IMG/VR virus record: IMGVR_UViG_3300010153_000037
Location: 1-35,775 of that record
Strand: one strand, 5' to 3'
DNA length: 35,775 nt
Source of the DNA: a virus
In this document: piece after piece, positions 7,467 through 32,297 of the stretch
Layout of the letters: every line of letters starts with the position of its first letter
How positions within the stretch are numbered: the first letter of the stretch is position 1
Made by a program: the position numbers and the translations under genes
Notes under the pieces: model-generated
Database searches by the model: none
What the model saw: the letters and a program-made list of their open reading frames with translations, nothing else
What the model was told of the DNA's origin: nothing

Positions 7467-8291
7467 ATGAAAAAGATTAGAACGGCAGAAGATATAGTTG
7501 AGGCGATTGACATTGGCTATCGAAATAAAAAGATACAAGAAGCCCGACAATATATTGGGGCTAGTGGAGTAGGTACTCCTTGTGATGCCGCACTCGCTTT
7601 CTCACTCAGAGGTTTCCCCGAACCACAAATTAACCCAAGGACACAACGCATATTTGCGTTGGGTCATTTGCTTGAAGACATTGTTGTTAAGGATCTAAAG
7701 GAGAACGCAGACGTAAGAGTGTGGGAAGTAGACGGCATGACTGGTCGTCAGTATTCCTATCATCTATACGGCGGTCATGTGAGTTGTCACATGGACGGAC
7801 ACATAGAGACAGACGATCAGATTGTACGAGTACTTGAGATCAAGTCTATGAATGACGCAAGTCACAAAAAGTTTTTAAAGAATGGGGTGAAGGATGCACA
7901 CCCTAAATATTATTCACAGTTGCAGATGATGATGGGTATGAGTGGTTTCAAGGAAGCCGTGTTTGTAGCTATCAACAAAAATACGTCAGAATATGGTGCT
8001 GAGATAGTCGAGTATGACGACATACACTACCACTTTCTGTTATCAAAGGTTGAACGTGTGATGTCTGGAGAGGCCACAAAGGTCAGCGATAACCCAGATA
8101 GTTTCAGTTGTAGGTTTTGTTTTAAGAAAGCCGCTTGCTGGGAAGGGCTCGGAGCACCAGTGAGGTGTGAGACATGTGCCTTTGCTTTCCCAAGAGAGGA
8201 CGGAGGGTGGCACTGCGACAAACATGATCGTGAAGCTATACACGCTTGCCAAGAATATAAAGTTTATAAGCCAAAGGAAAAAGGTCAATGA
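7467..8291 (+). CDS. Cas4/RecB-like Fe-S exonuclease
   Basis: The 274-aa protein shows a RecB-family PD-(D/E)XK core: HLLE (H67, E70), HMDGH with D110, LEIKS with E124 and K126, and a YYSQLQ motif (Q151). One Cys near the N-terminus (C39 in TPCD) and a C-terminal trio (C215, C218, C224) reproduce the four-Cys layout that holds a 4Fe-4S cluster in Cas4 and AddB. An extra CxxC...C...C tail (C234, C237, C250, C261) looks like a zinc site. It likely resects DNA ends for the Sak4/SSB pair. ATG 7467 has GAGGAG upstream. There is no CRISPR array in the window, so a CRISPR adaptation role is not supported. Confidence 0.8.
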   Translation: MKKIRTAEDIVEAIDIGYRNKKIQEARQYIGASGVGTPCDAALAFSLRGFPEPQINPRTQRIFALGHLLEDIVVKDLKENADVRVWEVDGMTGRQYSYHLYGGHVSCHMDGHIETDDQIVRVLEIKSMNDASHKKFLKNGVKDAHPKYYSQLQMMMGMSGFKEAVFVAINKNTSEYGAEIVEYDDIHYHFLLSKVERVMSGEATKVSDNPDSFSCRFCFKKAACWEGLGAPVRCETCAFAFPREDGGWHCDKHDREAIHACQEYKVYKPKEKGQ

Positions 8292-8602
8292 GTGAAAAGA
8301 ATAGATCAGAAGTTCTGTGTGAAGCAGAAGAATTAATTAATGGGGACAGAGCAAAAGATTATGGAGATGCCTACAAAAACCACGAAAGAATTGCAAAGCT
8401 ATGGGCTGTCATCCTTGAGAAAGATATTACAGTTAAAGACGTTATTCTTTGTATGGTAGCCATGAAGACAGCCAGACTTATCCATTCAGATAAATTTGAT
8501 TCTTGGCTGGACATCTGTGGATACGGTGCAATCGGTGGAGAATTTCAACAGAGATCAGAAAATAAATCCGAAGTACCTCTCTTTAATGTAACCAAGGAGT
8601 AA
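8288..8602 (+). CDS. DUF6378-domain phage protein
   Basis: The 104-aa protein matches the DUF6378 profile: EAEELINGDRAKDYGDAYKN near residues 12-31, RIAKLWAVIL, ITVKDVILCMVAMKTARL, then DSWLDICGYGAIGGE. The family is common in phages and is built of helices around the GDRAKDYG motif; some related folds act on nucleotides, but no activity is proven. The ATG overlaps the exonuclease stop (ATGA), making it the last gene of the recombination operon. Confidence 0.85.
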   Translation: MSEKNRSEVLCEAEELINGDRAKDYGDAYKNHERIAKLWAVILEKDITVKDVILCMVAMKTARLIHSDKFDSWLDICGYGAIGGEFQQRSENKSEVPLFNVTKE

Positions 8603-8966: not shown

Positions 8967-9196
8967 CTAAAGTTCCAAATGTTATACCTGCCACCAACCA
9001 TTATCTTCTTGCCAACATAAATGTTCTGACACATAGGCTGGACATAATATATGTCCTCGTCGTCTGAGATTATCTGTGCTTTGCTGACAGAAACATTGAA
9101 ACATTCCTCTTGTGTCGGTAATAAATCTTTCCGAGTAACCACCATGCAAGACTCAGCTTGAACAGACGAACAGAACATAATGATGGATAGCCACAT
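8963..9196 (-). CDS. Small secreted/periplasmic protein with signal peptide, 77 aa
   Basis: ATG 9196 overlaps the upstream stop in TGATG and is preferred over TTG 9199. The N-terminus MWLSIIMFCSSVQAES reads as a short signal peptide with a likely cleavage after VQA. The mature part of about 62 residues has three Cys (two near the start, one in QPMCQNIY) and beta-like strands, fitting a disulfide-stabilised periplasmic protein. Being next to the M15 peptidase and holin, it may be a lysis accessory (for example an outer-membrane or spanin-like partner), but no lipobox is present and the role is inference. Confidence 0.6.
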   Translation of the reverse strand: MWLSIIMFCSSVQAESCMVVTRKDLLPTQEECFNVSVSKAQIISDDEDIYYVQPMCQNIYVGKKIMVGGRYNIWNFR

Positions 9197-9666
9197 CAAT
9201 GAGGCATGATTTCGAAATGTGGGCCGTCTATAAAAGGCCGTCTGCCTTCTGACCTTCGGAGATCAATGTATTCATTCATCGCTTCTTCCATTGTTCCTTC
9301 GTACTCACCGATTGAGTCAACAGACCAAGCTCCACCCCACCTTATCTTAATACCTTTTTCCCTTGCCGCTTTAGCCATTGCGTCTGCAATATCGTCGTAC
9401 AGATTCAACTCCCAAGAAGCTCGTGACTTTCCATTCACGGAAACATACGCCATTAAATCGACAGCATCTCCCGTAAGGTGCTTGCTCTTCCTCGTCTGGC
9501 TTGCTCCACGAGCTACTAAATCGTCCTGTTCTGCTTGAGTTCTCATCCCCGAAATGACTCCGAAGTCCACAGAACTCTGGGAGATCGCCGAGGTAACAAC
9601 TGAGAACAGTTCATTCTTTACGCCGTCCAGTCTACCCAGACTTCTTTGAGATAGTTTAAAGGTCAT
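9196..9666 (-). CDS. M15-family peptidoglycan peptidase (endolysin)
   Basis: The 156-aa protein carries the M15/VanY zinc-site motifs SKHLTGDAVDL (H63, D70) and DGPHFEI (H150), with IRWGGAW between. Early residues SGMRTQAEQ match the conserved substrate-loop region. This is the full length of a single-domain phage L-Ala-D-Glu or D-Ala-D-Ala peptidase that cleaves cell-wall peptides at lysis. No signal peptide, so it depends on the adjacent holin. A second, different lytic enzyme (SleB type) lies at 32849-33253. Confidence 0.88.
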   Translation of the reverse strand: MTFKLSQRSLGRLDGVKNELFSVVTSAISQSSVDFGVISGMRTQAEQDDLVARGASQTRKSKHLTGDAVDLMAYVSVNGKSRASWELNLYDDIADAMAKAAREKGIKIRWGGAWSVDSIGEYEGTMEEAMNEYIDLRRSEGRRPFIDGPHFEIMPH

Positions 9667-10123: not shown

Positions 10124-10470
10124 TATCTTTCCTCCTTCGATTTAGCCCAAGCATTAGCACCAACATACCCACCGATTATTCCTAACTGGCTAAGTATGAA
10201 TGTCGTTGCAACACCGACCAAATCATCTAGTCTGCTTTCTGGAACGACCTCTGGTATTGTTAGTATTGCGACAAAGATTACGGTTGCTATGGATTGAAAC
10301 CAGATAAGCAATCTTATCTGGTCTTCCTTCTTGTCACTATTCTCCATACGAATACGACGTTCTTCTCGATCCAGTTCAGCGTCAAGCTCTTCGTCTGTCA
10401 GGATATTGTCCCCATTCGTATCAGCTTTGCTGAAGCGAGACTTGGGGTCGAGCTTCTTCGTCAACTCCAT
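10123..10470 (-). CDS. EF-hand membrane protein
   Basis: The 115-aa product contains a canonical EF-hand loop, DTNGDNILTDEE, with ligands D17, N19, D21 and E28 and the usual I23, followed by an acidic helix. Two hydrophobic segments follow (LLIWFQSIATVIFVAILTIP and a stretch around TTFILSQLGIIGGYVGANAW), so it is probably a two-TM inner-membrane protein with a cytoplasmic Ca2+-type site. Next to the holin it may be a second holin or an antiholin. The ATG overlaps the giant gene's stop region by 10 nt, behind GGGGAGG. A calcium-sensing lysis role is inference. Confidence 0.75.
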   Translation of the reverse strand: MELTKKLDPKSRFSKADTNGDNILTDEELDAELDREERRIRMENSDKKEDQIRLLIWFQSIATVIFVAILTIPEVVPESRLDDLVGVATTFILSQLGIIGGYVGANAWAKSKEER

Positions 10471-13400
10471 TTACCTCCCCAGCTACCCCAGCCAGACGAA
10501 TTATTTCCTGTGGGTTCACCTGCGACGGAGTTAACTATTCCTTCTCTTGCTCGTTTGACACCTCCAACAACTGGAATACGGGTTGCGATTTCCCTAACGG
10601 CAGTTCTCTCTTTTGAATTACTTTCTGATGAACCGAATGCGGAGTCCATGCCGCCGCCGAGTACAGACAGACCTGCTGTAATCAGGCCAACACTTGGGCC
10701 ACCTAATGTCTGCAAGAACCTTGTCTGTCCATAAGAACCATTGTCTGCCTGTGTAACCGCTGAGTGTAAGATGTCACCGAGCAGACCAACGCCACCCATT
10801 TGCAACATTCCCTCAAGATACCAGCCTAAGAAATCAACTTCGTTACCGTGAATTTTTTCATCATACCCTGCTGTCTTCAGAGCATTTCTAACTCTCAACT
10901 GTGGTGATTGCTCGTCCTCGCCACCTCGCATTTGCACAATGTCTTTCACTGCCAATGCACCCATACCGAAAGTTGGGCCGAGTGAAAGGAAGTAGAGTAG
11001 GGGCTTTATGTTTGACTCGCTTGCGTCTCCTTTGAGTAGCTTGCCAATCTGTGCTTCTCTAATCACATGACCTGCCAGACGGCTCATCATTAACGGGAAT
11101 GATTTAAGCTGGAACGCTAAAGCTCCCAGTGGTGTCTGTGCAAATAGAGGAGCATCGTTTGCGTTAGGCTGGAAGATACTCTCGTCTGCAAACCTTATCA
11201 TTGCTTTGCGTAAAGAGTCATCTGTGCCAAGAAGAGATCTATCGCTTAGACTAACTCTACTTTTTGATCCACCCTCAAGATAATCTTCGAGGCCAAAGTT
11301 CTTCATGTATCTGTAGGCTAGTTTATATTCTCTAGGCTGTTCACTAACTGGCTTGCCTTTAACATAAGATCTTAACGCTTTCTTCTGGTGCGTAATGAAT
11401 GTCTGGTGAGCCAATGCACCTGCGATCTGTCGGTTCATGTCTGTCCAAGGCGTTAGCATTGTAGCGTTGAAGAAGGCATTAGATAATTTACTATCTACCG
11501 CACCATACATATTTAACATACGCTCATGCGTAATGTTCTCCATTGCCACACCAACTTCAGACAAAGCTCTCTTATAATCTGGATCAAGAGCCAGTGTCTT
11601 AACGGCTTTCATCCAGTCTGTCACAGAGCCAGACCTTACGATTGGGAGAACAAGGTCGCCCAATGATGTTAGCGTAGTAAAGCCAAGCAGGGTTACATTG
11701 TTAAAACTTCTTAGGCCACGAGAAACTCTCAGACCTGCCTTACCACCAAAGTCATTGAGACTATCTTTCCTAGACACTCGCATAGCATTCTCAATAAACT
11801 TAGCATTGTCATTCTCCAATAGTGTCTTATTACCCTTATGGTCTTCCAATGCACCAAGTATCGCTTCAACTCTGGCTGTATATGTCTTATCAATCTGACC
11901 GCTAGGTGTCCTAATTGCGATGGAGTTAAGCATTTCTCTTGCGGCTGGTATGCCCTGTGTATTGGCAACCTCCACCAGTTCTTCAGAAAACTTAATAGCG
12001 TCCTGATCCTTGCCAGTAAAAGGCATAGATACCTCAGACCTTAGTGTTCCTTCTTGGACACCGTCAGTCGTTACAGATCTAAAGTCTTTATTAAATACTT
12101 TATTAGTTGATAGGAGTTTAGCTATACCCCTCGCTCCGTTTTCAGTTGTATAAAGATAGTCATCAACGCCGTGAGAGTTTAATCCAAACTTCTTTGTGTG
12201 AAGTATTCTTCTTGTTGATCCTTCAAAGTATTTAACGAGCATGAACTCAAGGTCGTCCTCAAGAAATTTCTCCATAATCTCCATAGCTCTAGGATATTTC
12301 TCCAACTCGATCAGTCTGTTGAAGTCTATGCTTTCTGCTTGAGGATTTTTAGTAGATCCTCTGATAGGAGACTTAGGACTTTCTGGTACTTGAACGCCAT
12401 CTACACTCTCTCTGGTCAGGCTCTGGTAAACTTTCTCAGCAAATTTTCTTGCGTCGTCTTTCTGCAAGATATTGCTAGTACCAGAAAGGAGTTGAATTTG
12501 CTCCTGAAAATAATACTCCATCATACCTTCAAGGAACTCTTCCCTATTCTTTTGAATCTTATCTCTGCTCCAAACCTGTGGTATATAGTTCTTTCTCCAA
12601 CCAACATAGTGCATACCAGCTTCATTCATCCGTGCGTGTTCTCTAGCGAACTCATCTTTAATCTTATCAAAGACTACTCTTTCAGATGGTGTCAGAACTT
12701 TTGCCTGTCTGCTGTCTGCCCCGTGCCTAAGTGCAGAAACAATTTTCCTGTATGCCTGGGGCTGTTTTTGCCAGACCGAGCCAGACGCAGACCGAGCCCA
12801 CGCCCGCACCTTTCCGTCTGCCCCTGGAAGACCACGCAACATATTATGAATAGGCATATATTTAGATGCAAAAGTCTGGTGCTGGTCTGGGAAATGTTGC
12901 TTGTACCAGCCACCTAACCAGTTCATACCCATTGATTCCATGCGTGTTGACTGAGCTTGAAGCCATGCGAATGGCCCTTGTTTTCTTACTGCTTGCTCTT
13001 GAACAGGGGTTAAGTCTCTTTGTCTTATAATGCTAGACATAGCGTCTACCATTGGGGGAGATACGCCTTCGTCTTCAACCGCCTGTAGCATGTCTACCGT
13101 ATTCGTGGTATCTAGCTTACTCGTCTGTCCGTCAGCCATAGCCATTGCCGCTCCGCCATTGAAACCTTTAGCAGACCCTTCAAAGTCCCTGTAATACAGA
13201 CGAGCGTCTTCGGCATCAAAGAACTCTGCGTTAACATGCTTCACATTCTCTGGATTGAATATCACAAAGGCATCATAATCCACCTCTTCGCCAGCACGAT
13301 AATCGTCACTATCAGATACCTTGTCTCTGTTAATTCTGTTTCTATGTGGTGCTCTCATACTGTCATACCCAGCATCTTCAAGAGCTTCCCTGAATATCTC

Positions 13401-16400
13401 TTTAGCTTGCTCTTCAGTGAGAGAACTATCTCCTCTCATTATTGTCTTAATGTAGGAATTATATGCTACTTGCCCAGCAACTCCCGTCTTTGAAGCCCCA
13501 AAGTTTTCTTCGACAGCTTTCTGGAAGTCTGCCATGTTGCCGCCTTCGAAATTGTTTGTCACTCGCATGATTGCATTCAAGGCCGCATTCGTATCCTCTC
13601 TACCTACGTTGTGAGTATTCGAATAATTTACTCCATTGCCGTCATCACCCACTCTCCAGATATTTTTACCGAGATCGAAAGTGTTCTTCATTCTTGTTAT
13701 GAGAGGAAGGACGGTGGGTTCGAAATTTAAGCCAGCATCATCCAGAATCTTCATTGACATCTTCTCTGAATATAGAAGGTAATCCAAATTGTCTTGGATC
13801 TGCTTTCGTCTTTGTGTAATAGATCTTAGTTCTACATTCAAATCTGCTAGGTCATCTTCTTCCAGAGCATTTCTCAATCTCTCAACAGTATCGTTATGAG
13901 TTTCAACCTCATTCTGTACGTCTGCCAATCTCCTTCTTTCAGATGCAATTTTTTCTCTGTCTGAATGCAGTCTTTCATTCTGCCAAATGAGATCATCTTT
14001 TGTTTTTTCGTCAAAGTCTCCATCATCAATCATTCTTCTCACAGCCGATTGGGTTGGTCGCCTTGCATAAGTACCTTCGACTGCTCTACTGCTTGGAGAA
14101 ATATAAATACCAGACCCCATCATACCGCCACCCTGACGCATCACGACCTGAGAGTCTTTGAATGGTGCTCCATTAGGTGTGCCATGATAGTAAATGGTTG
14201 GCGTTCCATCATCATTAACCGAATGCTTACCATTGGCTGTGTATTTACTGATCGCCGCTTTCTTAGAGTCCTTGCTCTGTCGTATAATATCGTGTGCGTA
14301 TGCAGTAACATAAGTGGGAGATACGGCAGGTTCTTTAACATCAACACGAGCCAGTGGAGATTTATTAGATGCCTCAAGCATATCTCCGTAGATTGTTAGT
14401 CGTCTGAACTGTTGCTTGATATCTTTGCGTCCAATCAATCCATTAACAACGTAGGAGATATACTCGACCATTCTATCAATGGCTCTCTCGAATGAATTTT
14501 TAAGACGGATATTATCCATACTGCCAGACAACATGCTTTTCATAACATCGCCACGCATAACCCGTTGACCAAGATAGTTAGCCATACCTTCAGCAAACCA
14601 CTCCTCTGCTAGAACTTCTTCAAGCTGGGCTGGTGTCATGTCTGGATATTTTTTCCCGTAAGACTTTTCTACATTTGATTTGATAGTGTCGTCAGCCGCC
14701 CTGTATAACTCAATGACAGCGTCCATCTCTTCTTTAGGTAGCATTCCACCCCTGACCATTGTATGACCAATCTCATGCACGGCATCAAATGGGTTAGAGT
14801 TTCCTTTGGTTAGACCAATAGAAATCTTTCTGAGGTCTGATCTTAATTTATTAAATGTATCGCTTCTAAAATCGACAGAAACATTTTTCATTCCAGCAGG
14901 GTCTACCTTTGCCAGACGAGCAATATCAGACCCATCCATCACATTAGTTTCGCCAAGAGTATTCTCTACGTTCTTGCCCATTAAGTTCATCATACGATGC
15001 AACATGGTTCTCATGGTGTACTGAACTTCAGGATCACGATGGGACATATATGAAAGGATTGTCTTTGTGGAAATAGGTGCTGAAGGTGGGATGCCATCTT
15101 CAGTAGCAATACCAACACCATTACTAAGTTCTGTTCTAATGCGTTGTCTGAGATATTTTGGAACAGGCTTGTCTAGCTTCTTGTATGTATCAGTGATACC
15201 TCGTCGATGGATTTCCCACTCGACGGCATGTATAGGCCACTCAATATTTCCATGAGTGAAAAAACCTGTCTCAGCACCATTCTTCCACAGTTCTACAAGC
15301 TCATTCTTTTGTAACTTCCTGAGTTCCTTTGTGGTCTTCCACATACTCCTTGGGGCTAGATCCATTGGGGGAGACGCTTGATCCATCGGGGGGGACGCTT
15401 GTTGTTGATCCCAGATGTTCCTGTACTTAGCTAACCAAGTGTCTATATCCTTGATTGATTTAGTTTTACCCCATTCTCTTTTCGCTTGTGCTTTTAAATT
15501 ATCAGGTAACTCTACGATAAATAGAACAGATGCTTCTTCGTCATAAAACTCTTTATATCTTCCACCATCATTTTTTGCTTTAATATCAGCAAGCTCCTCT
15601 TGAATTGCCTTATCTTCTGCAATAGCTTCTGGAGAACCTGCTTCTGGGCCTTCCTCCTTCATCACCTGTATGTCATCTGCACTTTGTTCATAGTGAATTT
15701 GAGTGAAGTATTCAGGCTCTGGTTCGGCGTTCTTCTTTTGCCACATTAACCAAGCAACCTGATCGCCAAGTTGTGTGTCTTTATTCTTCTTGTAGATTTC
15801 ACGCAGTTCTGGGATAGACTTATCGCCATAGGATCTTTGAGTTGCCTCAGTTACATTATCCATCCTTGGCTTTTTATTTGTCGCAGACTTACGTTTATTT
15901 GCAGGGGTTTTTATTACTTTATTAGCGTCGTTGTCTGCGGCTCTGTTAGCAACTTTAATTTTTCTACCTTCTTTTGTTCTAATTTCAAAAGAAGGCTTTC
16001 TGGATACCATGCCCGTTCTTAAATTTACAAACTCGTCTGCTCTCGATGCACCTTCTGCCTTTTTATATTCAATGTCTGAATACTCACGCATTAACCGAAT
16101 AAGTTCATTTAAAGTTGTGTAACTGGTCTGTTCACCGCCGTATGGTCTGGCGTTTGATCCACCTTTAAGCAGATCTGCGTGTCCATGCTCGAACAGTTCT
16201 TCAATATATTTTGCTTTCAACTCGATAGCTTCAGGACTATCAGCCTCTTGTAAAGCGTCGTCTCTTATTTGACCAAGCTCATCTTGTTTTGCTCTGAGTT
16301 GCTGAACAAGACCCCCTTTCTCAGCCATAATATAATTTAAGTCTGCAAACCTACCTCTTGCTACTTTATCTAAAGGACGTAGCCAGCTTAGTGTATTCTT

Positions 16401-19400
16401 CATTGCAGTAGATTTAGAGCCGACATCTCTATTTGGGAAAGCGGAAGCTAGAAGAGATCTAAAACCTCTTGCCGCATTTACTAATTCTTCTGGGTTGCCT
16501 TCAGGGTCTTGATAAACCCTGATAGCTCGTTGTATTTCATCAACTGCCATTTCAAGCCTAACCTGAAATCCCTTTACTACCATTCCCTTCTTTGTCTTCG
16601 GATCGTCCGAAATTACACCAATCTTTTTTATGCTTCTGACTTGTTCTGGAAGAACTTTCGAAAACAAACCTTCGAGTTCTGGGGCAATGTTCGCTCCAGA
16701 AAAATACCTGTCCACAGATGCCCTTTGGATCTTAGACATTTTTTGCCAGTAATGTTCATTGTAGACATTAGTTTTATGATCGCTAAATATGCCGTGAGAA
16801 CGGTTGTCAAAAGCCCAAGATGCAAACTGGTCTGCCCATATCTTTCGTGCCAAGCCTGTCTCAGTTTCTGCATACCTGTCTAACACAGGTATCTTTGCCT
16901 TTGCTTTTCCTTTTGTTGCAATGTCTCTACTTAAAGCATTCCAGAAAAGCATTCGGTCTTCTGGTGTTAAGATATTGTCATAAGACCATTGGGCTACTGC
17001 ATGGAAAAAAGTATGGTCAGCAGATACCTTTTCTCTGTCACCCATTCTAATGTTCCCATTGGCATAACTCCAACCTTGATCTCCTCCTTCTGTCGTCACA
17101 ATTCTTGGAGCTTTAAGAGGATCTCCTCCAATAAAAGCCAGTGTGTTTTTCACAACTACCGCAACCTCTGGGTCGGCATCTTGCATAATTTTTTCAATCT
17201 TGTTGATTATCTTTTCTCTATCACTAGCTTTTCTAACAATACCCCCTGGAATTAAGTCTCTTTGAATGGAGTAGAGTTGCTCAAGATCGCTGATTAATAT
17301 TGCGAGTTCTGTCTTATTTCCTTTAGTGGGAAATTCACCGTTATCAATACTATCTATGGCATGTTGAACGTCGCTGAGTGTAGGATCACCTAGAGCCTGT
17401 CTGGTGTTCCTTCTGTTAAAAGCTGTACGCTGTTGTTCGTTTAACTTAGATACATCGAGAGGGCTTTCGGCAAGGTTCTCTACGGGAGTAGCCATACCAT
17501 TTCCTGTCTCGTCACCAACGAAACGTATAACTCCTTGTCCGTCTGAAGCACTTGGCTCTTCCCCTGCTTCATCCCAAAGTTTTGCCAAAGCATTTATATT
17601 AGACCTAGAGCCAGTAGGGACTTTGCTTTCTTCTATGTAACGAACTTCCCAATCATCTGGGTTTTGTTTTCCGAGCAGGGACTTAATACCTTCGCCTGTT
17701 TCTGCTTGCTTTTTAGAAGCCAGACGGTATGGCAACTTACCTGTGCCATCCTTTTTCTTTATGAATAAAAGTTTATTACCTTTAACTGCTGGGTTTTTCT
17801 CAAGAACCTCTGACACTAAACTAGGTTTTTTCTGACTAACTAATTCTGCTGTAGCTTCGTCTGCGTATATCTTTCCATCCCGTCCGTTGGCGTAAAGAAT
17901 TTCTCCTTTTTTAGCAGTGTGCCTGAAATCAACTCTGCCTTTATTCGGGCCTTCCGTAATTTCTTTGATGACATTGGGTGTAGATTTATCAGCTTGAAAA
18001 GGAACAAGAAGACTTTCAGACTCAATCCTAGCTATTTCTTGTTCTACTTCTTCTATTTTCTTCGGGCTTCTAAGTCTCTCAAGTTTCTTTCTTAATGTTT
18101 CTACATTCTCTCCCTTTGAATTTTTACGTCTAGTAGCTTCCGCAAGGGCAGAGCCAATGTCATTCATTCTATTGCCAACAAACGTCTGCTCTTTTGAACC
18201 TAAACCAACACGCTTTGAGTCCCATTTTAGAAATGATTGGATTTTACCGCTTTCAGTTCTACCAGCCCCTTCAAGAATAGATGCTCTCTCAATAGCATTC
18301 GTAACATTCCTTGGGCTTTTAAGTCCTTTCTCAGCCCTCTGAGCTAGGACAACCTTCTTTGCATTGAGCTTCATTTGCTCCATGCTCATAGGTTCGTAAT
18401 CTGCAAGCTCCTCTTCAGTTAAATCTTTTTTGTAATCAGCTTCGTTCTTTTGTAGATCTCTAACTGCTTTGATAAATTCCTTTTCTTCATCACCTTTAAA
18501 TTTGGCATTCAATATAGTCTGATCGTCTGCCAGTCTCTGCTTCTCACCGCCAGACATGAGTGTGTCATAAACTGAGTCTATCTCCTCTTGGCTCTTGCTA
18601 GGTAAATTTCGTTTTGCTTGAGCCTTTATAATCTCAGCCATCTTTTCTGGGTCTGTGACTTTCCTATTGTCTTCCGCTATTTTTGCTATTTCTTCGGCTA
18701 CCGAAGGCTCTCCTTCGACCTTAACTGCTGGAGCTTCAGTATCTTTTAGAAGTTGTCTGACAGTCTTTGTAGCACCTTGTTTTCCAAGTTTGATTACCCC
18801 CTTCTCATTCGTTGCAATGTTTCCATTGGCAATGTTTTCTTTCAGCCACTGATCGGCTTGCTCTGGGGTAAACCCTGCCTTCGCAAGTTGTTCGTCAACA
18901 CTCTTCTGTCCACCTTGACCAGCTTTACCTCCCCAATTAACTTCAGGAAGTTTTGGTGCAGATGCTTTATCTGGGTCTTCTACCTTTGTCTGTAATCTCT
19001 CAGACACCTCGTCAATAATTTTATCAACATCATCTGATGTTTTTGCTTTTTTTAATTTTCTTTTTATTTTGCTTGCGTCTGGTTCGCCTGAAATCAAGGT
19101 ATTGACAACTGGTGTCATCTCTTTCTTGTAGCCTTCAGGATTATTTTCCCTGAGATCAGCAACTCTTGCTTCATCAGCCTCTATATCTTCAGTGGTGACG
19201 GAGGAATCGTCTGTGGAGGAAGGGCCAGATCCATCCTCCGTCGCCAATTCAGCCTCGTCGGTTGTAGTTGAGGCCGAACCTTTTCCTTTTCCTCTCGCCT
19301 TTTTAGCAGAGGCTTTCTTAGCCTGTTCATCTATCTTCTTTGCTCGCTTCTTTGCTGAAGTAAGAATAGCTTCGGAAGTTAGAGCGTCGCCTTTCTTAGC

Positions 19401-20606
19401 CGCAACTCTTGCATGTGCCACATCTGCATCCAAAGCGGCTTGCATAGCTTTAGCCATCTTTTGGTCAGCAACTTTATTGGACTGCATCAGGGCTGAAATC
19501 TGGTCTTGCTCATTCTTCAGACGCTCTACTATTTCTTTATTAACCTCTGCTCGTGATACATCCTTCGCAATTTCTCTACCCAAAGTAGTATTTTCTAAGC
19601 CGTCTTCTACTATTGCCTCTTGTGCTATCCTTGCTTCGTTTAACTGCTGTTGAAATACAGGTTGCTGTCCGTCCAACTCTCCAAGTATCTCGTCTGTCGA
19701 TGTCTTGGGAACAGGTTCTACTTCAACTTCTGCTTCTGCTCCAATTTTGGGTTCATCTGTTTTTGGAGCAGGGAGTATTAATCCCGATTCTTTTTGATTC
19801 AAAAAGTTTATCTCTTCTGAAGCTCTTCTATTAGTTAAAGACGCTATTTCTTCTGGAGAGAGGTCTGACCTTGATAAAGTTTGAGCCTCTCTAGCTCCTT
19901 GTCTGACACCTGAAATAGCTGACGGAATACCGATTGCACCACCGACAGCACCACCAAGAGCAGTTCCGAATGCTGTTGCTTGAGCGAATTGATTCCAGTC
20001 AAACTCCTGTTGGAGTCCAATGTCTTGTCTGTATCCTTGTTCACTTACGTTGATAAGAGCTTCTTGCCCACCAGATATTGCACCCTCAGTTGCCGCACCA
20101 GTAGTAACACCTTTAAGAAATGATTTAACTGGAGCAGATCTTCCAAGGGCAGTTGTTGTTCTCATTGCCGCTTGGGAAACACCTTTAGCCGCAATACCAC
20201 CAATTAAGTTAATTGGGTCTGCCAACACAGACTTTGCTATGTCTGGCACAGCACCCCAACCACGACCACCTTCTTGATAGAAGTTAGGCAGGTTGTCCCA
20301 GACTGTTGTTAGTCTGGCGTTTCTCATCTTCTCTTCGTCGGTGTCTCCACCACCTTCCATCATTCTGCCGACAGCACCGATAGTATTTAACTGAGCCCAG
20401 TTCTCGTCTGAATAAAATTTGTTGATAAGGTCTTCGTCTGACAGTTGCTGTAACGGGTCGTATCTGTCTTGAAGGTCTTTAATAAATCTTGGATCTTTAA
20501 GTATGCTTCGTCTGTCTACATTAGAAGCGTATCCAAGGTCTGCTGTTTGAGAGGTGGTTTGATCTTTAGGGTCTGTAAGATCAAAAGTAACTTTTTTAAA
20601 TGTCAT
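10461..20606 (-). CDS. Giant 3381-aa internal/ejection-type virion protein with metallopeptidase and ADP-ribosyltransferase-like domains
   Basis: The position after two medium virion proteins matches T7 gp16, the ejected core protein, but the length is far greater. Visible parts: residues 121-236 form a glycine-rich hydrophobic segment (DPINLIGGIAAKG; TALGGAVGGAIGIPSAI); about 240-950 are charged helices with a Lys/Ala/Gly/Ser low-complexity patch; 1195-1250 resembles a peptidase fold whose HExxH is HAVAQ (1202-1206), so probably inactive; 1944-1948 is HEIGH with a possible third ligand E2001, E2002 or E2006, an intact zinc-peptidase site; 2138-2460 matches ADP-ribosyltransferase-like domains of phage polyvalent proteins (YYHGTPNG with H2141, GSGIYIS with Y2168, FVIFNPENVKHVNAEFFD) split by a coiled coil. 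The C-terminus has further hydrophobic stretches. No T7-type transglycosylase motif was seen. The ATG has GGAG 8 nt upstream inside a hairpin. Confidence 0.85.
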   Translation of the reverse strand: MTFKKVTFDLTDPKDQTTSQTADLGYASNVDRRSILKDPRFIKDLQDRYDPLQQLSDEDLINKFYSDENWAQLNTIGAVGRMMEGGGDTDEEKMRNARLTTVWDNLPNFYQEGGRGWGAVPDIAKSVLADPINLIGGIAAKGVSQAAMRTTTALGRSAPVKSFLKGVTTGAATEGAISGGQEALINVSEQGYRQDIGLQQEFDWNQFAQATAFGTALGGAVGGAIGIPSAISGVRQGAREAQTLSRSDLSPEEIASLTNRRASEEINFLNQKESGLILPAPKTDEPKIGAEAEVEVEPVPKTSTDEILGELDGQQPVFQQQLNEARIAQEAIVEDGLENTTLGREIAKDVSRAEVNKEIVERLKNEQDQISALMQSNKVADQKMAKAMQAALDADVAHARVAAKKGDALTSEAILTSAKKRAKKIDEQAKKASAKKARGKGKGSASTTTDEAELATEDGSGPSSTDDSSVTTEDIEADEARVADLRENNPEGYKKEMTPVVNTLISGEPDASKIKRKLKKAKTSDDVDKIIDEVSERLQTKVEDPDKASAPKLPEVNWGGKAGQGGQKSVDEQLAKAGFTPEQADQWLKENIANGNIATNEKGVIKLGKQGATKTVRQLLKDTEAPAVKVEGEPSVAEEIAKIAEDNRKVTDPEKMAEIIKAQAKRNLPSKSQEEIDSVYDTLMSGGEKQRLADDQTILNAKFKGDEEKEFIKAVRDLQKNEADYKKDLTEEELADYEPMSMEQMKLNAKKVVLAQRAEKGLKSPRNVTNAIERASILEGAGRTESGKIQSFLKWDSKRVGLGSKEQTFVGNRMNDIGSALAEATRRKNSKGENVETLRKKLERLRSPKKIEEVEQEIARIESESLLVPFQADKSTPNVIKEITEGPNKGRVDFRHTAKKGEILYANGRDGKIYADEATAELVSQKKPSLVSEVLEKNPAVKGNKLLFIKKKDGTGKLPYRLASKKQAETGEGIKSLLGKQNPDDWEVRYIEESKVPTGSRSNINALAKLWDEAGEEPSASDGQGVIRFVGDETGNGMATPVENLAESPLDVSKLNEQQRTAFNRRNTRQALGDPTLSDVQHAIDSIDNGEFPTKGNKTELAILISDLEQLYSIQRDLIPGGIVRKASDREKIINKIEKIMQDADPEVAVVVKNTLAFIGGDPLKAPRIVTTEGGDQGWSYANGNIRMGDREKVSADHTFFHAVAQWSYDNILTPEDRMLFWNALSRDIATKGKAKAKIPVLDRYAETETGLARKIWADQFASWAFDNRSHGIFSDHKTNVYNEHYWQKMSKIQRASVDRYFSGANIAPELEGLFSKVLPEQVRSIKKIGVISDDPKTKKGMVVKGFQVRLEMAVDEIQRAIRVYQDPEGNPEELVNAARGFRSLLASAFPNRDVGSKSTAMKNTLSWLRPLDKVARGRFADLNYIMAEKGGLVQQLRAKQDELGQIRDDALQEADSPEAIELKAKYIEELFEHGHADLLKGGSNARPYGGEQTSYTTLNELIRLMREYSDIEYKKAEGASRADEFVNLRTGMVSRKPSFEIRTKEGRKIKVANRAADNDANKVIKTPANKRKSATNKKPRMDNVTEATQRSYGDKSIPELREIYKKNKDTQLGDQVAWLMWQKKNAEPEPEYFTQIHYEQSADDIQVMKEEGPEAGSPEAIAEDKAIQEELADIKAKNDGGRYKEFYDEEASVLFIVELPDNLKAQAKREWGKTKSIKDIDTWLAKYRNIWDQQQASPPMDQASPPMDLAPRSMWKTTKELRKLQKNELVELWKNGAETGFFTHGNIEWPIHAVEWEIHRRGITDTYKKLDKPVPKYLRQRIRTELSNGVGIATEDGIPPSAPISTKTILSYMSHRDPEVQYTMRTMLHRMMNLMGKNVENTLGETNVMDGSDIARLAKVDPAGMKNVSVDFRSDTFNKLRSDLRKISIGLTKGNSNPFDAVHEIGHTMVRGGMLPKEEMDAVIELYRAADDTIKSNVEKSYGKKYPDMTPAQLEEVLAEEWFAEGMANYLGQRVMRGDVMKSMLSGSMDNIRLKNSFERAIDRMVEYISYVVNGLIGRKDIKQQFRRLTIYGDMLEASNKSPLARVDVKEPAVSPTYVTAYAHDIIRQSKDSKKAAISKYTANGKHSVNDDGTPTIYYHGTPNGAPFKDSQVVMRQGGGMMGSGIYISPSSRAVEGTYARRPTQSAVRRMIDDGDFDEKTKDDLIWQNERLHSDREKIASERRRLADVQNEVETHNDTVERLRNALEEDDLADLNVELRSITQRRKQIQDNLDYLLYSEKMSMKILDDAGLNFEPTVLPLITRMKNTFDLGKNIWRVGDDGNGVNYSNTHNVGREDTNAALNAIMRVTNNFEGGNMADFQKAVEENFGASKTGVAGQVAYNSYIKTIMRGDSSLTEEQAKEIFREALEDAGYDSMRAPHRNRINRDKVSDSDDYRAGEEVDYDAFVIFNPENVKHVNAEFFDAEDARLYYRDFEGSAKGFNGGAAMAMADGQTSKLDTTNTVDMLQAVEDEGVSPPMVDAMSSIIRQRDLTPVQEQAVRKQGPFAWLQAQSTRMESMGMNWLGGWYKQHFPDQHQTFASKYMPIHNMLRGLPGADGKVRAWARSASGSVWQKQPQAYRKIVSALRHGADSRQAKVLTPSERVVFDKIKDEFAREHARMNEAGMHYVGWRKNYIPQVWSRDKIQKNREEFLEGMMEYYFQEQIQLLSGTSNILQKDDARKFAEKVYQSLTRESVDGVQVPESPKSPIRGSTKNPQAESIDFNRLIELEKYPRAMEIMEKFLEDDLEFMLVKYFEGSTRRILHTKKFGLNSHGVDDYLYTTENGARGIAKLLSTNKVFNKDFRSVTTDGVQEGTLRSEVSMPFTGKDQDAIKFSEELVEVANTQGIPAAREMLNSIAIRTPSGQIDKTYTARVEAILGALEDHKGNKTLLENDNAKFIENAMRVSRKDSLNDFGGKAGLRVSRGLRSFNNVTLLGFTTLTSLGDLVLPIVRSGSVTDWMKAVKTLALDPDYKRALSEVGVAMENITHERMLNMYGAVDSKLSNAFFNATMLTPWTDMNRQIAGALAHQTFITHQKKALRSYVKGKPVSEQPREYKLAYRYMKNFGLEDYLEGGSKSRVSLSDRSLLGTDDSLRKAMIRFADESIFQPNANDAPLFAQTPLGALAFQLKSFPLMMSRLAGHVIREAQIGKLLKGDASESNIKPLLYFLSLGPTFGMGALAVKDIVQMRGGEDEQSPQLRVRNALKTAGYDEKIHGNEVDFLGWYLEGMLQMGGVGLLGDILHSAVTQADNGSYGQTRFLQTLGGPSVGLITAGLSVLGGGMDSAFGSSESNSKERTAVREIATRIPVVGGVKRAREGIVNSVAGEPTGNNSSGWGSWGGKWS
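15359..15400 (-). repeat. Two tandem 21-nt units inside the giant gene
   Basis: The unit gatccattgggggagacgctt (seen at 15359-15379, shown here as gatccattgg plus gggagacgctt) is repeated at 15380-15400 with two changes, encoding a doubled SPPMDQA peptide in a Pro-rich linker of the giant protein. It probably arose by slippage and marks a flexible joint upstream of the HEIGH domain. Confidence 0.8.
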
Positions 20607-20658: not shown

Positions 20659-20670
20659 GGGTCGTCCTTA
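20659..20670 (-). promoter_or_regulatory. Stop-codon-fused TAAGGACGACC hairpin after the 898-aa gene
   Basis: On the minus strand the stop codon TAA is the first part of TAAGGACGACC, followed by CCTTC. AAGG can pair with CCTT around the loop ACGACC. The identical 11-mer follows the capsid gene stop (see 31092-31110). Confidence 0.45.
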
Positions 20671-23364
20671 TTTAGGTATCTCATACCCAAAAGACACAGC
20701 CATAGAAGCCAATTCAGGTACTTCCTCTATGGCCTTGAATGGATCTTCTATGAATGCTTGGAAAACTTCAGGATTTCTTCTAAAGTATGCCTTCACACCT
20801 ATATCATCTGTCATTTCATCAAGAAACTTTCTTTGAGCTATCTGATCTCTATTTTCAGCGTCTTCAGATCCAAGAAGAAGATTTCTTAAACTCACTCCAC
20901 CGTCGCCAACTCTTCCTTTCAGCCACTCTTCTAATTTATTACCAACGAATGGTAGGTCTGTACCTAGAGCTTTCTCTGACCGAAGCTGACCCAGATTGAG
21001 ATCAAACTTAGCTTCTATTCTTTTCTTGTTCTTATTGTTCCAATCTACACTCTTAGTGTCGTCATAATACTGGTTATACCAATCTTGGTTTCTGTTTTCA
21101 TTGTTTAGGTCAGTTGGCTGTATCCTCTCTTTTTGTGTTTTTAGACGGTCAATCAACCTATCTACGGCTGTATTATCTGAAAGATAACCTGATGCACCTG
21201 CATATAGCTCGTCGATTGCATCTCTGTCATAAGCCTTACCAGCTATGTCTCTCCAATTTCTACGAGTTTCGAAGTTGTTTTCAAGAACATTTCCGTACTC
21301 TCCTACCCACTTTCTATACTGACCCTTGAGGTTATTAAGTACCCGAATGGCAGAATCATATTGTTCTGCTGTCTCAAATTCTTTAGAGTTTTGTTGGATC
21401 TCATTAAAACTAGACTCAAATGAATCTATTGTTTCACTAATGTGTGCTTCAACACTATCCTGATAATCTGTAAACAAAGTTCTCTGCTGAACCAACTCAT
21501 CGGTACTGAGGCTTTCGACGGCATCTGCCCAAGGAGTTGCCCCATGTGCTCTAAGCCATGCGTCTGCCATGTTTTTTAGTTGGCTAGGCGTAACATTCTC
21601 TCCAGCATTTTTAAGAGAATCACTGGTTGCAAAAGTAAGTAAAAGATTTTTGGTATTGTCATTCATTAGCCAATCTTTAGCTAGTTGTGGAGCTATCTCT
21701 TGTAGATAAGGGTTGCCACCACTCTTAATTTTTGAAGCATCTCCAGCAAAAATTTGAGAGGCTTTTTCTGCATTATCAGATACGGCTGTTGCAAGTAACT
21801 GTTTCTCCCTGTCTTTAGCTGTAAGGATACCGTCTGTAATTTGTCCATCCATTACATCCTGATTTAGTTTAATCACACCTTCAAGATGCTCTTGGATAAA
21901 CTTCTCTTTTTCTGCAATGCCCTCCTTAGACAGCCAGTATTCACCAGTAAGAGTACTGCTGAGAGTTTCGGAAATATATTTGCTTGCCGCTTCCATTCCT
22001 CCCACCCTGAGTTGTGATTCAATAGCTGTCGCCACAGTTTGATTCCAAAGTTTAGTTTCTACTTTGCTTAATTCGTCGGATCTTTCTGCATCAACTTTAA
22101 GTTCATATTTTTCTGTAGCATTAGTAATCATTGTCGCCAGATCGTCTGGTATCCCAGCAGAGCCAGTGCCGAGTATGTCTTCAAACTCTTTTGGTAGTGT
22201 TGACCTTGCGGTTGCGAGAAGAGTAGAAGGATCATCTCCTCGAATGATAGCGGCTTCGACAGCTTGGTAAGCACTTCGCTGTGCTTCGTCCCTACGAGTT
22301 TCTGTGGCAACCGATTGGGTACTTGTCGCTCTATCTACAATTTGATCTAGCCAGTCACGGTCTGCAAACAATTTATCAAAGAAGTCGTTGTCTTCCGATT
22401 GTAAAAGGTAATTGTATTTACTCCTTAGATCTTTCTCGATTTGTAATACGTCCATGTTTCGTTGGGAGTATATACCCTCTAAGCGACTTGCTTCGCCTTG
22501 TGCTTCTGTCAGTAAGGCTTTGAACCGTGCGTCTTTTGCTTTTGCTAAAAGATCTTCACCTTCTTTAACTACACCGCCAATAAAATCTGTATCAGTTTTA
22601 TCCCATAATGGGTTGCCCCCAAATTCACTTTCTAATGTGGCTAAAAGATTAGCTGGAGTTATCGTAGAATCTTTTGCAAGTTCTCTTACTCTGGCATTGA
22701 CAGTAGTATTAAAATTGTCTTTCTTTTTTTGTTGGGTTTCGTTAAATTCTACCTTTGCTTGGTCTAACACCTCCTTTGCAATCCCTTCACCAAGGCCATA
22801 CATATCCGCAAACATGCCGACATTTATATTAGTCGGGTCTTTTGCATCTTCAATAAACTTCATGGCATTTTCATAGTTTTCCGCAATTCGTCCTCGCCTT
22901 AATTTATCAAATCTCGTTTGGTTAAATTGACCCTTGATATCAAATCCCAGTTTGTCAAACCTTGGATTATTTTCCATGAAAGTTTCGTATGCTTTGTTAA
23001 ATTCTACCGTTCCGTCTTTACCTATTGGTGCGTTTAACAAGGCGTTGTCTATATCAGTGCTAAACAAATCACTAATTCTTCGCATATCTTCCATCTCTCC
23101 AAGAAGACGGGTTCTGTCTGCTATTTCTTTTTGCCGAAAATTTTCTGCCGCTATCCTATTACGAACATTTACAGATGGTGCTCCACCTGAGATGTAATTG
23201 TTTCCACCAGAATATGAATCAACGAAACTTTGGAAATCTGCGGCAGTTGCATAAGGGTTAGCCGCTTTGTAGTCAGCAAATGCTTCTGCCATCTGTTGTC
23301 TTTGTCCATGCCTGAACTCTTTTTGGTCTTGCATTCCCTGTGATATTGCTGAAAATATACTCAT
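20668..23364 (-). CDS. Internal virion protein, T7 gp15-like by position, 898 aa
   Basis: The product is almost wholly alpha-helical and polar, rich in Lys, Glu, Asn and Asp, with no signal or clear membrane segment. N-terminal MSIFSAISQGMQDQKEFRHG precedes many repeats of charged helices; there are no enzyme motifs I can name. Its place between a 469-aa coiled-coil protein and the giant protein is that of gp15 in the gp14-gp15-gp16 ejection set of T7-type phages, which builds the periplasmic tunnel for DNA entry. The function is inferred from order, size and composition only. It starts 3 nt after the 469-aa gene ends. Confidence 0.65.
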   Translation of the reverse strand: MSIFSAISQGMQDQKEFRHGQRQQMAEAFADYKAANPYATAADFQSFVDSYSGGNNYISGGAPSVNVRNRIAAENFRQKEIADRTRLLGEMEDMRRISDLFSTDIDNALLNAPIGKDGTVEFNKAYETFMENNPRFDKLGFDIKGQFNQTRFDKLRRGRIAENYENAMKFIEDAKDPTNINVGMFADMYGLGEGIAKEVLDQAKVEFNETQQKKKDNFNTTVNARVRELAKDSTITPANLLATLESEFGGNPLWDKTDTDFIGGVVKEGEDLLAKAKDARFKALLTEAQGEASRLEGIYSQRNMDVLQIEKDLRSKYNYLLQSEDNDFFDKLFADRDWLDQIVDRATSTQSVATETRRDEAQRSAYQAVEAAIIRGDDPSTLLATARSTLPKEFEDILGTGSAGIPDDLATMITNATEKYELKVDAERSDELSKVETKLWNQTVATAIESQLRVGGMEAASKYISETLSSTLTGEYWLSKEGIAEKEKFIQEHLEGVIKLNQDVMDGQITDGILTAKDREKQLLATAVSDNAEKASQIFAGDASKIKSGGNPYLQEIAPQLAKDWLMNDNTKNLLLTFATSDSLKNAGENVTPSQLKNMADAWLRAHGATPWADAVESLSTDELVQQRTLFTDYQDSVEAHISETIDSFESSFNEIQQNSKEFETAEQYDSAIRVLNNLKGQYRKWVGEYGNVLENNFETRRNWRDIAGKAYDRDAIDELYAGASGYLSDNTAVDRLIDRLKTQKERIQPTDLNNENRNQDWYNQYYDDTKSVDWNNKNKKRIEAKFDLNLGQLRSEKALGTDLPFVGNKLEEWLKGRVGDGGVSLRNLLLGSEDAENRDQIAQRKFLDEMTDDIGVKAYFRRNPEVFQAFIEDPFKAIEEVPELASMAVSFGYEIPK

Positions 23365-23367
23365 TGA

Positions 23368-24777
23368 TTAACTCCAATTAAAAATATCTTTAACGGTGTA
23401 CTTAGGTGTCATATCTGAATATTCTCCCGTACCATAATTCCAATCTAAGAATGCTTTACCGAATGTTCCTCCAGATGTTTTTGATTGTTCTAAGGCTTTA
23501 TTATACCTTTCACTCGCAGAGGTTAACATGTTTCCAGAATAGGAGCTTGGGTCTGACCAATTTTGTGGTGAATAGTCGTAAACGCCACTTCCGAGATTTA
23601 GACCTGCACTTGCCGCACCGCTTGTATTTACCCCTGTTAGGGAAGCAAGCTCTGAACCAAGATCTGTGTAGCCACTGCTTATTCCACTTCTCAGACCATA
23701 CTTGTCTTGGAACGCATTAGCAGAAGATCCGACACCTCTGTCGTAAATAGAAGAGGCTGGCATATAATTCATATAACCCATAGAAGACGGAGCGTCTGGA
23801 AGGTTAGCCATTTGTGCTAGACCTGCACCCATAGTATCTCCGTACTGACCAAGCTGACTTTGTCTTGAAGCTAAGATTTGGTTTATGTCTGTATTCTCAA
23901 TATTCTGCTGACCGCCAATATATTTCATTGCATCATCATAAGCTCTGAACCGAGCGTTCTGATATTCGTCTGCAAGACGTGAAGCTATATCACCTCTGGT
24001 CTGGTTAGCCAGAGTAGAGTTGTCCATGCCTCTGTTTATCAGACCACCTTCAGCAACAGACGCAACTCTGTCAGCCGCACGGTCTACGTCTCCGATATAT
24101 TGGTCTGCACGTTTGTTTACTTCTGCGTCAATTCGTGCCTGAGTAACTGGTGTTACGTCTGGGATATCTTGTAAGCCAGCGTACACATTCTCAAGACCTG
24201 TCTGCATACCCTGAATGCGATCTGAAATCATCTTGCGTTGACGCAACATATCGTTTCGTTCTTGCTGGAATCCAACTCTGGCATTATTTATCTGCTGGAT
24301 CTGGTAGTCTCTTTCAACTTCCTTTTGAGCCTTTGCCATTTCAAATCTTCGTTGGTCTTCGTCTCTTTCACCTGCGGCTATCGCCTTTGCGTCTTCAAGT
24401 TCCTGAAGAGCCCGTTCTCTTTCTTGACCAGTTATTTCCTGATTTCTTAAATACTGTTCTAGCTTAAATGCGTATTGACGTGCGGCTTCCCTGTCCATTT
24501 GAAGCATACGTTCAATCTCAAACTCACGTTCCTTGAGTAATCTGGATTTGTATTCACCTAACTCTCGTTCAGCGAATGCTCTCTCGTCTCCACGGATACC
24601 ACGATTTAGGTCATCAAGTCTGTTGTAACGTGCTCTGTCTTCCTCCATCCAATCCATTGACTGACGAGCCATTTCTCGATTGAACGCTTCAGCAGAGTCG
24701 TATCTCCTTTGTGCCTTGTTTTCACGAGACATGTCTTGGAGAAGACCAAGACCACCTAATACAACTGACCAAACCAT
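23368..24777 (-). CDS. Internal virion protein, T7 gp14-like by position, 469 aa
   Basis: Residues 1-14 (MVWSVVLGGLGLLQ) form a short hydrophobic start, then about 20-200 is a long charged helix with heptad-like repeats (EREFEIERMLQMDREAARQY, ELEDAKAIAAGERDEDQRRFEM), a coiled coil. The C-terminal half is Gly/Ser/Tyr-rich and less ordered, ending KYTVKDIFNWS. T7 gp14 is the membrane-inserting member of the ejection complex and is also encoded just before gp15 and gp16. Similarity here is positional and compositional, not a recognised homology. The gene is spaced 1 nt from the 781-aa gene. Confidence 0.6.
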   Translation of the reverse strand: MVWSVVLGGLGLLQDMSRENKAQRRYDSAEAFNREMARQSMDWMEEDRARYNRLDDLNRGIRGDERAFAERELGEYKSRLLKEREFEIERMLQMDREAARQYAFKLEQYLRNQEITGQERERALQELEDAKAIAAGERDEDQRRFEMAKAQKEVERDYQIQQINNARVGFQQERNDMLRQRKMISDRIQGMQTGLENVYAGLQDIPDVTPVTQARIDAEVNKRADQYIGDVDRAADRVASVAEGGLINRGMDNSTLANQTRGDIASRLADEYQNARFRAYDDAMKYIGGQQNIENTDINQILASRQSQLGQYGDTMGAGLAQMANLPDAPSSMGYMNYMPASSIYDRGVGSSANAFQDKYGLRSGISSGYTDLGSELASLTGVNTSGAASAGLNLGSGVYDYSPQNWSDPSSYSGNMLTSASERYNKALEQSKTSGGTFGKAFLDWNYGTGEYSDMTPKYTVKDIFNWS

Positions 24778-31091: not shown

Positions 31092-31110
31092 AAGGAATGG
31101 TCGTCCTTAT
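31092..31110 (-). promoter_or_regulatory. Stop-codon-fused TAAGGACGACC hairpin after the capsid gene
   Basis: The minus strand reads TAAGGACGACCATTCCTTA: stem TAAGGA/TCCTTA with a 7-nt loop CGACCAT. The first TAA is the capsid stop codon. The same 11-mer follows the 898-aa gene; the stems differ but both arms pair, so the structure rather than only the sequence seems kept. Confidence 0.5.
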
Positions 31111-32297
31111 GATCTGGAGTTCCAACCTTTGATGTAAGCATGAACCTTGTCTTGCAATAGTTCCAAACCACATTCGGTTAGGTACTCGTGCTTGACTGAG
31201 TCAGCGTCTGGTGACTGTCTGTTCTCCAAGAGTGAAGTATCACGACCTTCGAGGTAGCGATAGCTCAAGTATGGGAAGTCAACAATTACCATTGCATTCT
31301 TCATGTGATCCAACTGACGGAACTGTGGGTGTAAGTGAACCATCAAGTCACCTGCAAATGTTGTGTATCTGATGAGGTTAACCCCATAAGACCCTTCAAC
31401 AACTGTAGGCTTCCATCTGTCCTTACCCATTTGCTGTAGCTGATTAGCTACTGTTTCGCCTACGAAAGCGATCTTTTGATTGCTTCCATACTTGAAGACA
31501 GTTGACATTAGAAGTTTGTCGAAACCTTCTTCTGTCATCTTTCCAGCACCAGAACCACCGTAAGTTGCATAGGAAGTTGTGATATCAACTACGTTTGTTA
31601 ACGAGTTGACCAAACCACCTGTGTATCTGGTTGGAGCAGATGTTGAACCGTTAGCTTCATGCTTGTAACCGAAGAACATAGCTCTCTCAATGTCGCTCAT
31701 GTGTAGCTTGAGAGCTTTAGTCATGCTCTCGTCCATCTTATCACCAGTTCTTAGGTAGGTTGAACTCAAAGTATTTGATACTTGGAATGCAGTCCTAAAG
31801 ATCTGTGTGTAGTTAGACACTACTGAAGCGTCGAAAGAGATCGCTGTTGGGCTTGTTCCACCTTCAGCCGCCGCATATCCACTTATAAAGAGGACTGCAT
31901 TGTCTGCAATTTGGTGAGATGTACCGCCGATGTTTCGAGTTACAGCTAGGGTTGTTGAAGTAGTATCAGCAGTAGCTTGCATTACCTCACCAGTTGTCTG
32001 GTTGATAACGATAGCACCTTTGATAGCGTACTTGTTGTCGTCTGCCGCATCAATAGTGATAGACGCAGTAGATGTGGAAGCGATTGCACCATTCACAGTT
32101 AGTGTACGGTCTGGTAATTCGTCTCTGAAGTTTTTGTACTCAGGATCGTCTGTGCTTTCAGACGAACCCATAGATAACAAAGCGTTCAAAGGTGCATTAC
32201 CATTAGGCTCTAACAGAGTGAATAGTTCTCTGTAATTTTTTGGACGGAAGTCAGTGCCGAACTCGCCTGTGCCTCTCATCCCTTGTATTGCCGCCAT
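31107..32297 (-). CDS. Major capsid protein, SU10/DUF5309-like
   Basis: The 396-aa product has the SU10-type profile of an HK97-fold capsid subunit: an N-arm with YRELFTLLEPNGNAPLNALLSM (as YRELFTLLEPNGN and PLNALLSM), an inserted beta domain (about residues 65-140, TTGEVMQATADTTSTTLAV), the P-domain spine (KALKLHMSDIERAMFFGYKH), and the A-domain (IAFVGETVANQLQQM; YLSYRYLEGRDTSLLENRQS). It is preceded in transcription order by scaffold, then the SleB/nuclease insert. ATG 32297 has AAGGAG 9 nt upstream. It is probably the most highly expressed gene of the window. Confidence 0.9.
   Translation of the reverse strand: MAAIQGMRGTGEFGTDFRPKNYRELFTLLEPNGNAPLNALLSMGSSESTDDPEYKNFRDELPDRTLTVNGAIASTSTASITIDAADDNKYAIKGAIVINQTTGEVMQATADTTSTTLAVTRNIGGTSHQIADNAVLFISGYAAAEGGTSPTAISFDASVVSNYTQIFRTAFQVSNTLSSTYLRTGDKMDESMTKALKLHMSDIERAMFFGYKHEANGSTSAPTRYTGGLVNSLTNVVDITTSYATYGGSGAGKMTEEGFDKLLMSTVFKYGSNQKIAFVGETVANQLQQMGKDRWKPTVVEGSYGVNLIRYTTFAGDLMVHLHPQFRQLDHMKNAMVIVDFPYLSYRYLEGRDTSLLENRQSPDADSVKHEYLTECGLELLQDKVHAYIKGWNSRS

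Follow-up and report, generated by a model that had tools for sequence, protein, structure and literature searches.

What is the function of a 3381-amino-acid (aa) protein encoded where a T7-like phage would carry its gp16 ejection protein? The question is raised by the virus record IMGVR_UViG_3300010153_000037, an ocean virus of bacteria whose 35,775 bases are here termed the window. The initial annotation regarded the giant protein as the counterpart of T7 gp16 and as a virion-delivered effector, in which a zinc peptidase and an ADP-ribosyltransferase (ART)-like domain of the polyvalent phage type would cleave and modify host proteins. An intact open reading frame (ORF) with an ATG start is indeed present, to which the minus strand can now be assigned, and the residue positions given for its motifs proved exact (HEIGH, H2141, Y2168, and FVIFNP at 2447-2452). 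The explanation presented here is in part a different one. In a podovirus-like phage of the CRP-810 type, the protein probably serves as the large ejection protein and has grown into a polyvalent effector, with a peptidase that processes its own chain and an ART that is directed at the host.

The taxonomic setting of the giant protein is revealed by its neighbours and relatives. The major capsid protein of the window shares 84% identity with its counterpart in Roseobacter phage CRP-810. That phage is the prototype of a family of marine phages, described from a single isolate together with 251 genomes of uncultured members (PMC11288001). Both phages share the same gene order, which runs from the capsid through the tail tube genes, the fibre and a block of internal-protein-like genes (in the window, three of middle size) to the giant protein. 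IMG/VR scans gave many relatives and show conservation of the protein across at least 62 non-redundant full proteins of CRP-810-type marine podovirus-like phages; site counts given below refer to these 62, and Pfam counts for ART-PolyVal to 43 relatives. Close relatives are 55-97% identical with intact ORFs, and complete chains run from about 3,100 to 4,000 aa. Across dozens of phage contigs the order is constant, namely an N-terminal module, an upstream zincin-like domain (Zn1), a second such domain (Zn2), the ART and a C-terminal module. Swapped effector domains were looked for in the distant family members and none was found. A scan of genome contigs returned four contigs of metagenome-assembled genomes, none of them a clear prophage. 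Searches of PHROGs and NCBIfam with the giant protein gave nothing useful, and sequence searches of the PDB with the whole protein and with profiles of zincin plus ART, Zn1, the C-terminus and the N-terminus found no useful relative; what they left was tankyrase for the ART (E ~0.8), coiled-coil or designed helices for the N-terminal linker, and otherwise chance matches.

Support for an ejection role comes from homologies at both ends of the chain, which the initial annotation had missed. When the first ~200 residues were used in tblastn, 16 pelagiphage records were retrieved (E down to 7e-8), mostly annotated as internal virion protein D, which corresponds to T7 gp16. In a six-sequence database, the family profile of this N-terminal module matched HTVC019P gp37 (independent E-value 7e-31; hhalign 99.2%) and HTVC033P gp52 (2.5e-25). 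The homology to HTVC019P gp37 covers the N-terminal ~230 aa, whereas gp37 as a whole has 1265 aa and no zincin or ART match. The likeness to T7 gp16 itself is one of gene position, whereas the sequence homology is to gp37. The C-terminal module is the best conserved part of the giant protein, and its family profile matched gp66 of Aeromonas phage phiA008 (6e-26) and aligned collinearly, in two segments, with LUZ24 gp50 (1.5e-9), again within the six-sequence database; tblastn of the C-terminus to Pseudomonas LUZ24-like records reached E=3e-3 or weaker. LUZ24 gp50 is annotated as a phage particle or virion structural protein and lacks HExxH. Hydropathy reveals a hydrophobic, glycine-rich segment in the N-terminal module (residues 216-234) and three hydrophobic segments in the C-terminal one (2971-2989, 3202-3220 and 3298-3316). 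Thus, the ejection role is backed by homology through the N-terminal match to internal virion protein D and the C-terminal match to LUZ24 gp50. By sequence, each terminus is similar to the large internal virion protein that podoviruses carry, which is stronger evidence than gene order and falls short of proof of packaging. In phiA008 gp66 (2050 aa; L208:13911-20063), the shared C-terminal module is preceded by a HELGH zincin-like domain and an N-terminal staphylococcal nuclease domain, with no ART, so that a related ejection module here bears another set of enzymes.

The assignment of the ART domain is solid, and its place in the polyvalent class is supported. Pfam ART-PolyVal (PF18760) matches 32 of the 43 relatives (best E=1.8e-10) and PARP matches three, while the window domain itself scores below threshold (26 bits, the cut-off being 31.2; domain E-value 1.8e-5). 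The order of the motifs, namely YHGT(P), GxGxYxt, GYDG and VxFxPxxVKH, is the one expected for an ART, and the catalytic-type His and Tyr are both intact in 56 of 62 members. The structural model shows strands and helices in ART order, in blocks that mostly have a predicted local distance difference test score (pLDDT) of 85-95, and places H2141 and Y2168 on predicted strands. Among viral structures, the top Foldseek matches were phage proteins named "large polyvalent protein associated domain" and "ART-PolyVal-like" (best E 9e-17). Foldseek of the combined zincin and ART model against the PDB gave no usable information, its matches being coiled coils attracted by the long helical insert. The strand-5 acid of this ART class is an Asp (PMC5512222), for which D2445 is the candidate in the window; columns 2445 and 2451 are both not invariant in the family.

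The virion RNA polymerase (vRNAP) of Roseovarius Plymouth podovirus 1 (RPP1; CBX87992), the prototype of ART-bearing polyvalent proteins (PMC5512222), is among the closest known systems. It has about 3,760 aa and a gp16-like position, and its ART-PolyVal and M90/SprT-like HExxH metallopeptidase domains align in register with the window ART (P=6e-4, three control stretches giving >0.2) and with Zn1. In contrast to the window protein, it has an RNA polymerase, other N- and C-terminal modules, and the ART before the peptidase. Size, gene position and the combination of ART and zincin-like domains might mark the giant protein as an N4-type vRNAP as well. This identity was rejected and has next to no likelihood, since vRNAP_dom (PF21769) and N4_RNAP_helical have no match in the giant protein while both score in RPP1 (PF21769 1.3e-46), and since the family N-terminal, ART and C-terminal profiles found no significant match in N4 or RPP1, Zn1 and Zn2 matching weakly. 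The giant protein qualifies as a polyvalent protein, which by definition unites at least two unrelated biochemical domains in a single polypeptide of a phage or plasmid (Iyer 2017): its ART and HExxH domains lie between ejection modules. Its gene position and homologies fit a late virion gene, whose product would be delivered with the DNA.

The two zincin-like domains differ in their state of preservation. The initial annotation had overlooked Zn1, which is catalytically dead in the window protein and in its clade, yet retains HExxH and an EFFAxQF-type Glu in 54 of 62 proteins; its sub-threshold Pfam matches (M91, M48, ATLF and SprT) are all HExxH families. In Zn2, HEIGH is the sole HExxH of the window chain, where 0.04 would be expected by composition, and 37 of the 62 proteins keep an intact equivalent. 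The candidate Glu ligand accompanies every HExxH, in 54 of 54 cases for Zn1 and 37 of 37 for Zn2 (Glu 2002). No Pfam family matched Zn2, and neither its predicted fold nor its PDB matches relate it to solved zincins; its sole link to zincins is the hhalign comparison with Zn1 (94.4%, E 9e-8), which spans the motif and the ligand. Zn2 therefore looks like a zinc peptidase and may work like one, and is not classed here as a proven zincin; the peptidase call is good but incomplete.

The proposed sequence of events is as follows. The gp16-like N-terminal and the LUZ24 gp50-like C-terminal modules, the latter with its hydrophobic segments, would travel inside the virion and reach the cell envelope along with the DNA, carrying between them the dead first site, the intact second site (HEIGH...E2002) and the ART. 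After ejection the peptidase would most likely cut its own chain and so free the ART. At the start of infection the ART would use NAD+ to ADP-ribosylate a protein or nucleic acid of the host, with T4 Alt as a model for such a host-directed enzyme (PMC9503650). For peptidase domains of this kind the published roles are processing before packaging, as proposed for P1 DdrB, processing after entry, and attack on host proteins; Iyer et al. proposed that polyvalent proteins are processed by their own metallopeptidase (MPTase) domains (PMC5512222). By analogy with these precedents, self-processing is favoured as the commoner role.

The same precedents leave some room for two other roles of the peptidase. 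According to the first, which is close to the initial annotation, the protein is a virion-delivered effector whose peptidase and ART both attack host proteins, for example those of defence. Both domains do sit in an ejection-type protein, and Iyer et al. consider that MPTases may act as effectors (PMC5512222). This nonetheless seems unlikely: of a host-aimed peptidase one might expect variation and swapping, but both zincin-like domains keep fixed places in the chain. The second role, for which P1 DdrB is the precedent, is maturation, in which the peptidase would cut the chain during head assembly before packaging. In its favour, the chain has about the length of the N4 vRNAP, which has to traverse a ~35 Å channel and does so as beads on a string (PMC12633501); no function is given to the HExxH domain of N4 vRNAP in that study. 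However, the N4 vRNAP, itself MPTase-bearing, enters the virion without being cleaved (PMC5512222), and maturation cleavage is a still less likely role here.

CRP-810 (OR671924) is homologous along most of the chain and alike in gene order, HExxH sites and ART His and Tyr. It differs in that both of its zincin-like sites are intact and in that the giant protein is represented by three ORFs, gp36 (residues 1-372), gp35 (625-2535) and gp34 (2526-3381), annotated as internal virion protein D and, for the last two, as hypothetical (PMC11288001). At the gp35/gp34 junction (L014:10040-10150), the frame is shifted by a nearly exact tandem duplication of 31 bp, right at the boundary of ART and C-terminal module; the split reflects either true fission of the gene or an error in the sequence. 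Two other relatives (L200 and L207) likewise encode the N-terminal module in an ORF of its own, as CRP-810 does. As these ORFs are separate and the CRP-810 breaks fall outside the enzymatic domains, the modules appear able to work apart. In one contig (L088 and L167) the giant gene is split three ways into overlapping frames of 759, 1086 and 1577 codons, while a close relative (L089) has one ORF. In the window, an imperfect 21-bp repeat (15355-15401) encodes copies of QASPPMD, and residues about 1635-1765 around it are mostly missing from close relatives.

A stronger version of the proposal concerns the history of the two sites. On a tree of the C-terminal module, the Zn1 site was lost once, at the base of the window clade (Shimodaira-Hasegawa-like approximate likelihood ratio test, SH-aLRT, 99), and the Zn2 site about seven times, at least six of them on well-supported branches. 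No complete protein among the 62 lacks both HExxH sites, and in the sole apparent double loss (L084) the contig end cuts the chain before the Zn1 motif. It is conceivable, although rather doubtful, that this globally distributed marine family has a new architecture of ejection conduit protein and relies on a built-in protease for release of the ART in the host, with at least one of two tandem zincin-like domains always active and the active site shifted from the first to the second in the window clade. A statistical claim that one of the two sites must live was dropped. Four distant members (L177, L191, L194 and L199) have lost the Zn2 site and the ART His and Tyr with Zn1 intact.

Several observations weigh against a self-processing, ART-releasing ejection protein. 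The repeated losses imply that the Zn2 site is not essential in general, and the lack of double losses, which looks suggestive when rows are counted (P=0.011), has no significance once the tree is taken into account (P about 0.64). Zn2 is predicted to be all-helical (pLDDT 72 alone, mostly 75-95 per block in a larger model), and Foldseek of Zn2 alone against the PDB returned no peptidase, just unrelated helical proteins at E>0.5. Of the profile and structure comparisons that the initial annotation had called for, those of the ART gave a model in ART order and ART-PolyVal matches in most relatives, while its zinc peptidase stands on the conserved HExxH and Glu without a solved peptidase among the matches; together with the precedents for self-processing, this leaves cleavage of host proteins unsupported. 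Since the N4 vRNAP reaches the virion uncut, self-processing cannot be taken for granted. The CRP-810 ORF breaks are possibly sequence errors. No virion proteomics of any family member was found. Furthermore, the third ART position is variable, with Asp or Glu at 2445 in only ~25 of 43 relatives. This last point, and the persistence of the domains although Zn1 is dead in the window clade and Zn2 in many other proteins, would also suit a purely structural ejection protein whose enzyme-like domains are relics serving as spacers or folding units. Relics would hardly be expected to keep the ART His and Tyr so widely across deep divergence, or to co-retain all three candidate metal ligands wherever HExxH is present, and such a structural role is accordingly quite improbable.

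Table 1. Coordinates in the window of the giant protein, its modules and motifs, and selected neighbouring genes.
Feature	Positions	Strand	Basis or remark
Giant ejection-type protein, 3381 aa	10461..20606	-	Intact ORF, ATG start; relatives; constant domain order
N-terminal module, residues 1-250	19857..20606	-	Homology to pelagiphage internal virion protein D
Zn1, upstream zincin-like domain, residues ~1075-1345	16572..17384	-	Catalytically dead in window protein; intact in most relatives
Degenerate Zn1 motif HAVAQ, residues 1202-1206	16989..17003	-	Third ligand position is Lys
Zn2, intact HEIGH domain, residues ~1820-2080	14367..15149	-	Conserved site; similarity to Zn1 profile
HEIGH motif, residues 1944-1948	14763..14777	-	Sole HExxH in chain
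E2002, candidate third metal ligand (LAEEWFAE)	14601..14603	-	Glu in 37/37 proteins that keep HExxH
ART domain, ART-PolyVal type, residues ~2131-2475	13182..14216	-	Pfam PF18760 in relatives; RPP1 profile match; model
ART H2141 (YYHGTP)	14184..14186	-	Kept in most relatives
ART Y2168 (GSGIYIS)	14103..14105	-	Kept in most relatives
Coiled-coil-like insert in ART, two long helices, residues ~2200-2290	13737..14009	-	Predicted helices, model 381-425 and 431-471
C-terminal module, residues 2500-3381	10464..13109	-	Profile matches LUZ24 gp50 and phiA008 gp66
898-aa protein at T7 gp15 position	20668..23364	-	Gene order alone
469-aa protein, internal virion protein block	23368..24777	-	Homologous to CRP-810 gp38
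Major capsid protein	31107..32297	-	84% identity to CRP-810

Among the neighbouring genes, the 898-aa protein had no PHROG match and no convincing one in Pfam. A predicted cell-wall enzyme of the Hydrolase_2 family (32849-33253) adjoins the capsid genes, and between it and the capsid lies a 140-aa ORF (32430-32852) that resembles a PD-(D/E)XK nuclease by eye and has no Pfam match. A predicted M15 peptidase (9196-9666) adjoins the holin; at this place CRP-810 encodes a GH108 enzyme. A 104-aa ORF (8288-8602), equivalent to CRP-810 gp30, matches a PHROG named phosphofructokinase, a name that looks doubtful for so short a protein.

The polyvalent class is already known from the survey of Iyer (2017) and from the vRNAPs of N4 and RPP1. 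The architecture found here, with a gp16-like N-terminus, two zincin-like domains, an ART and a gp50-like C-terminus but no RNA polymerase, appears to be undescribed: a search limited to open-licence PMC papers found no description of it or of its functions in CRP-810-type phages, and the one paper there that names CRP-810 mentions neither peptidase nor ADP-ribosyl. A function can thereby be proposed for genes left hypothetical in CRP-810, and because that phage is cultured, key steps are directly testable. If the proposal is true, a large family of marine phages delivers an ADP-ribosyltransferase with its DNA by way of the main ejection protein and without an RNA polymerase. This would extend the theme of T4 Alt and N4 to phages of Roseobacter and probably of SAR11, hosts in which early takeover is little known.

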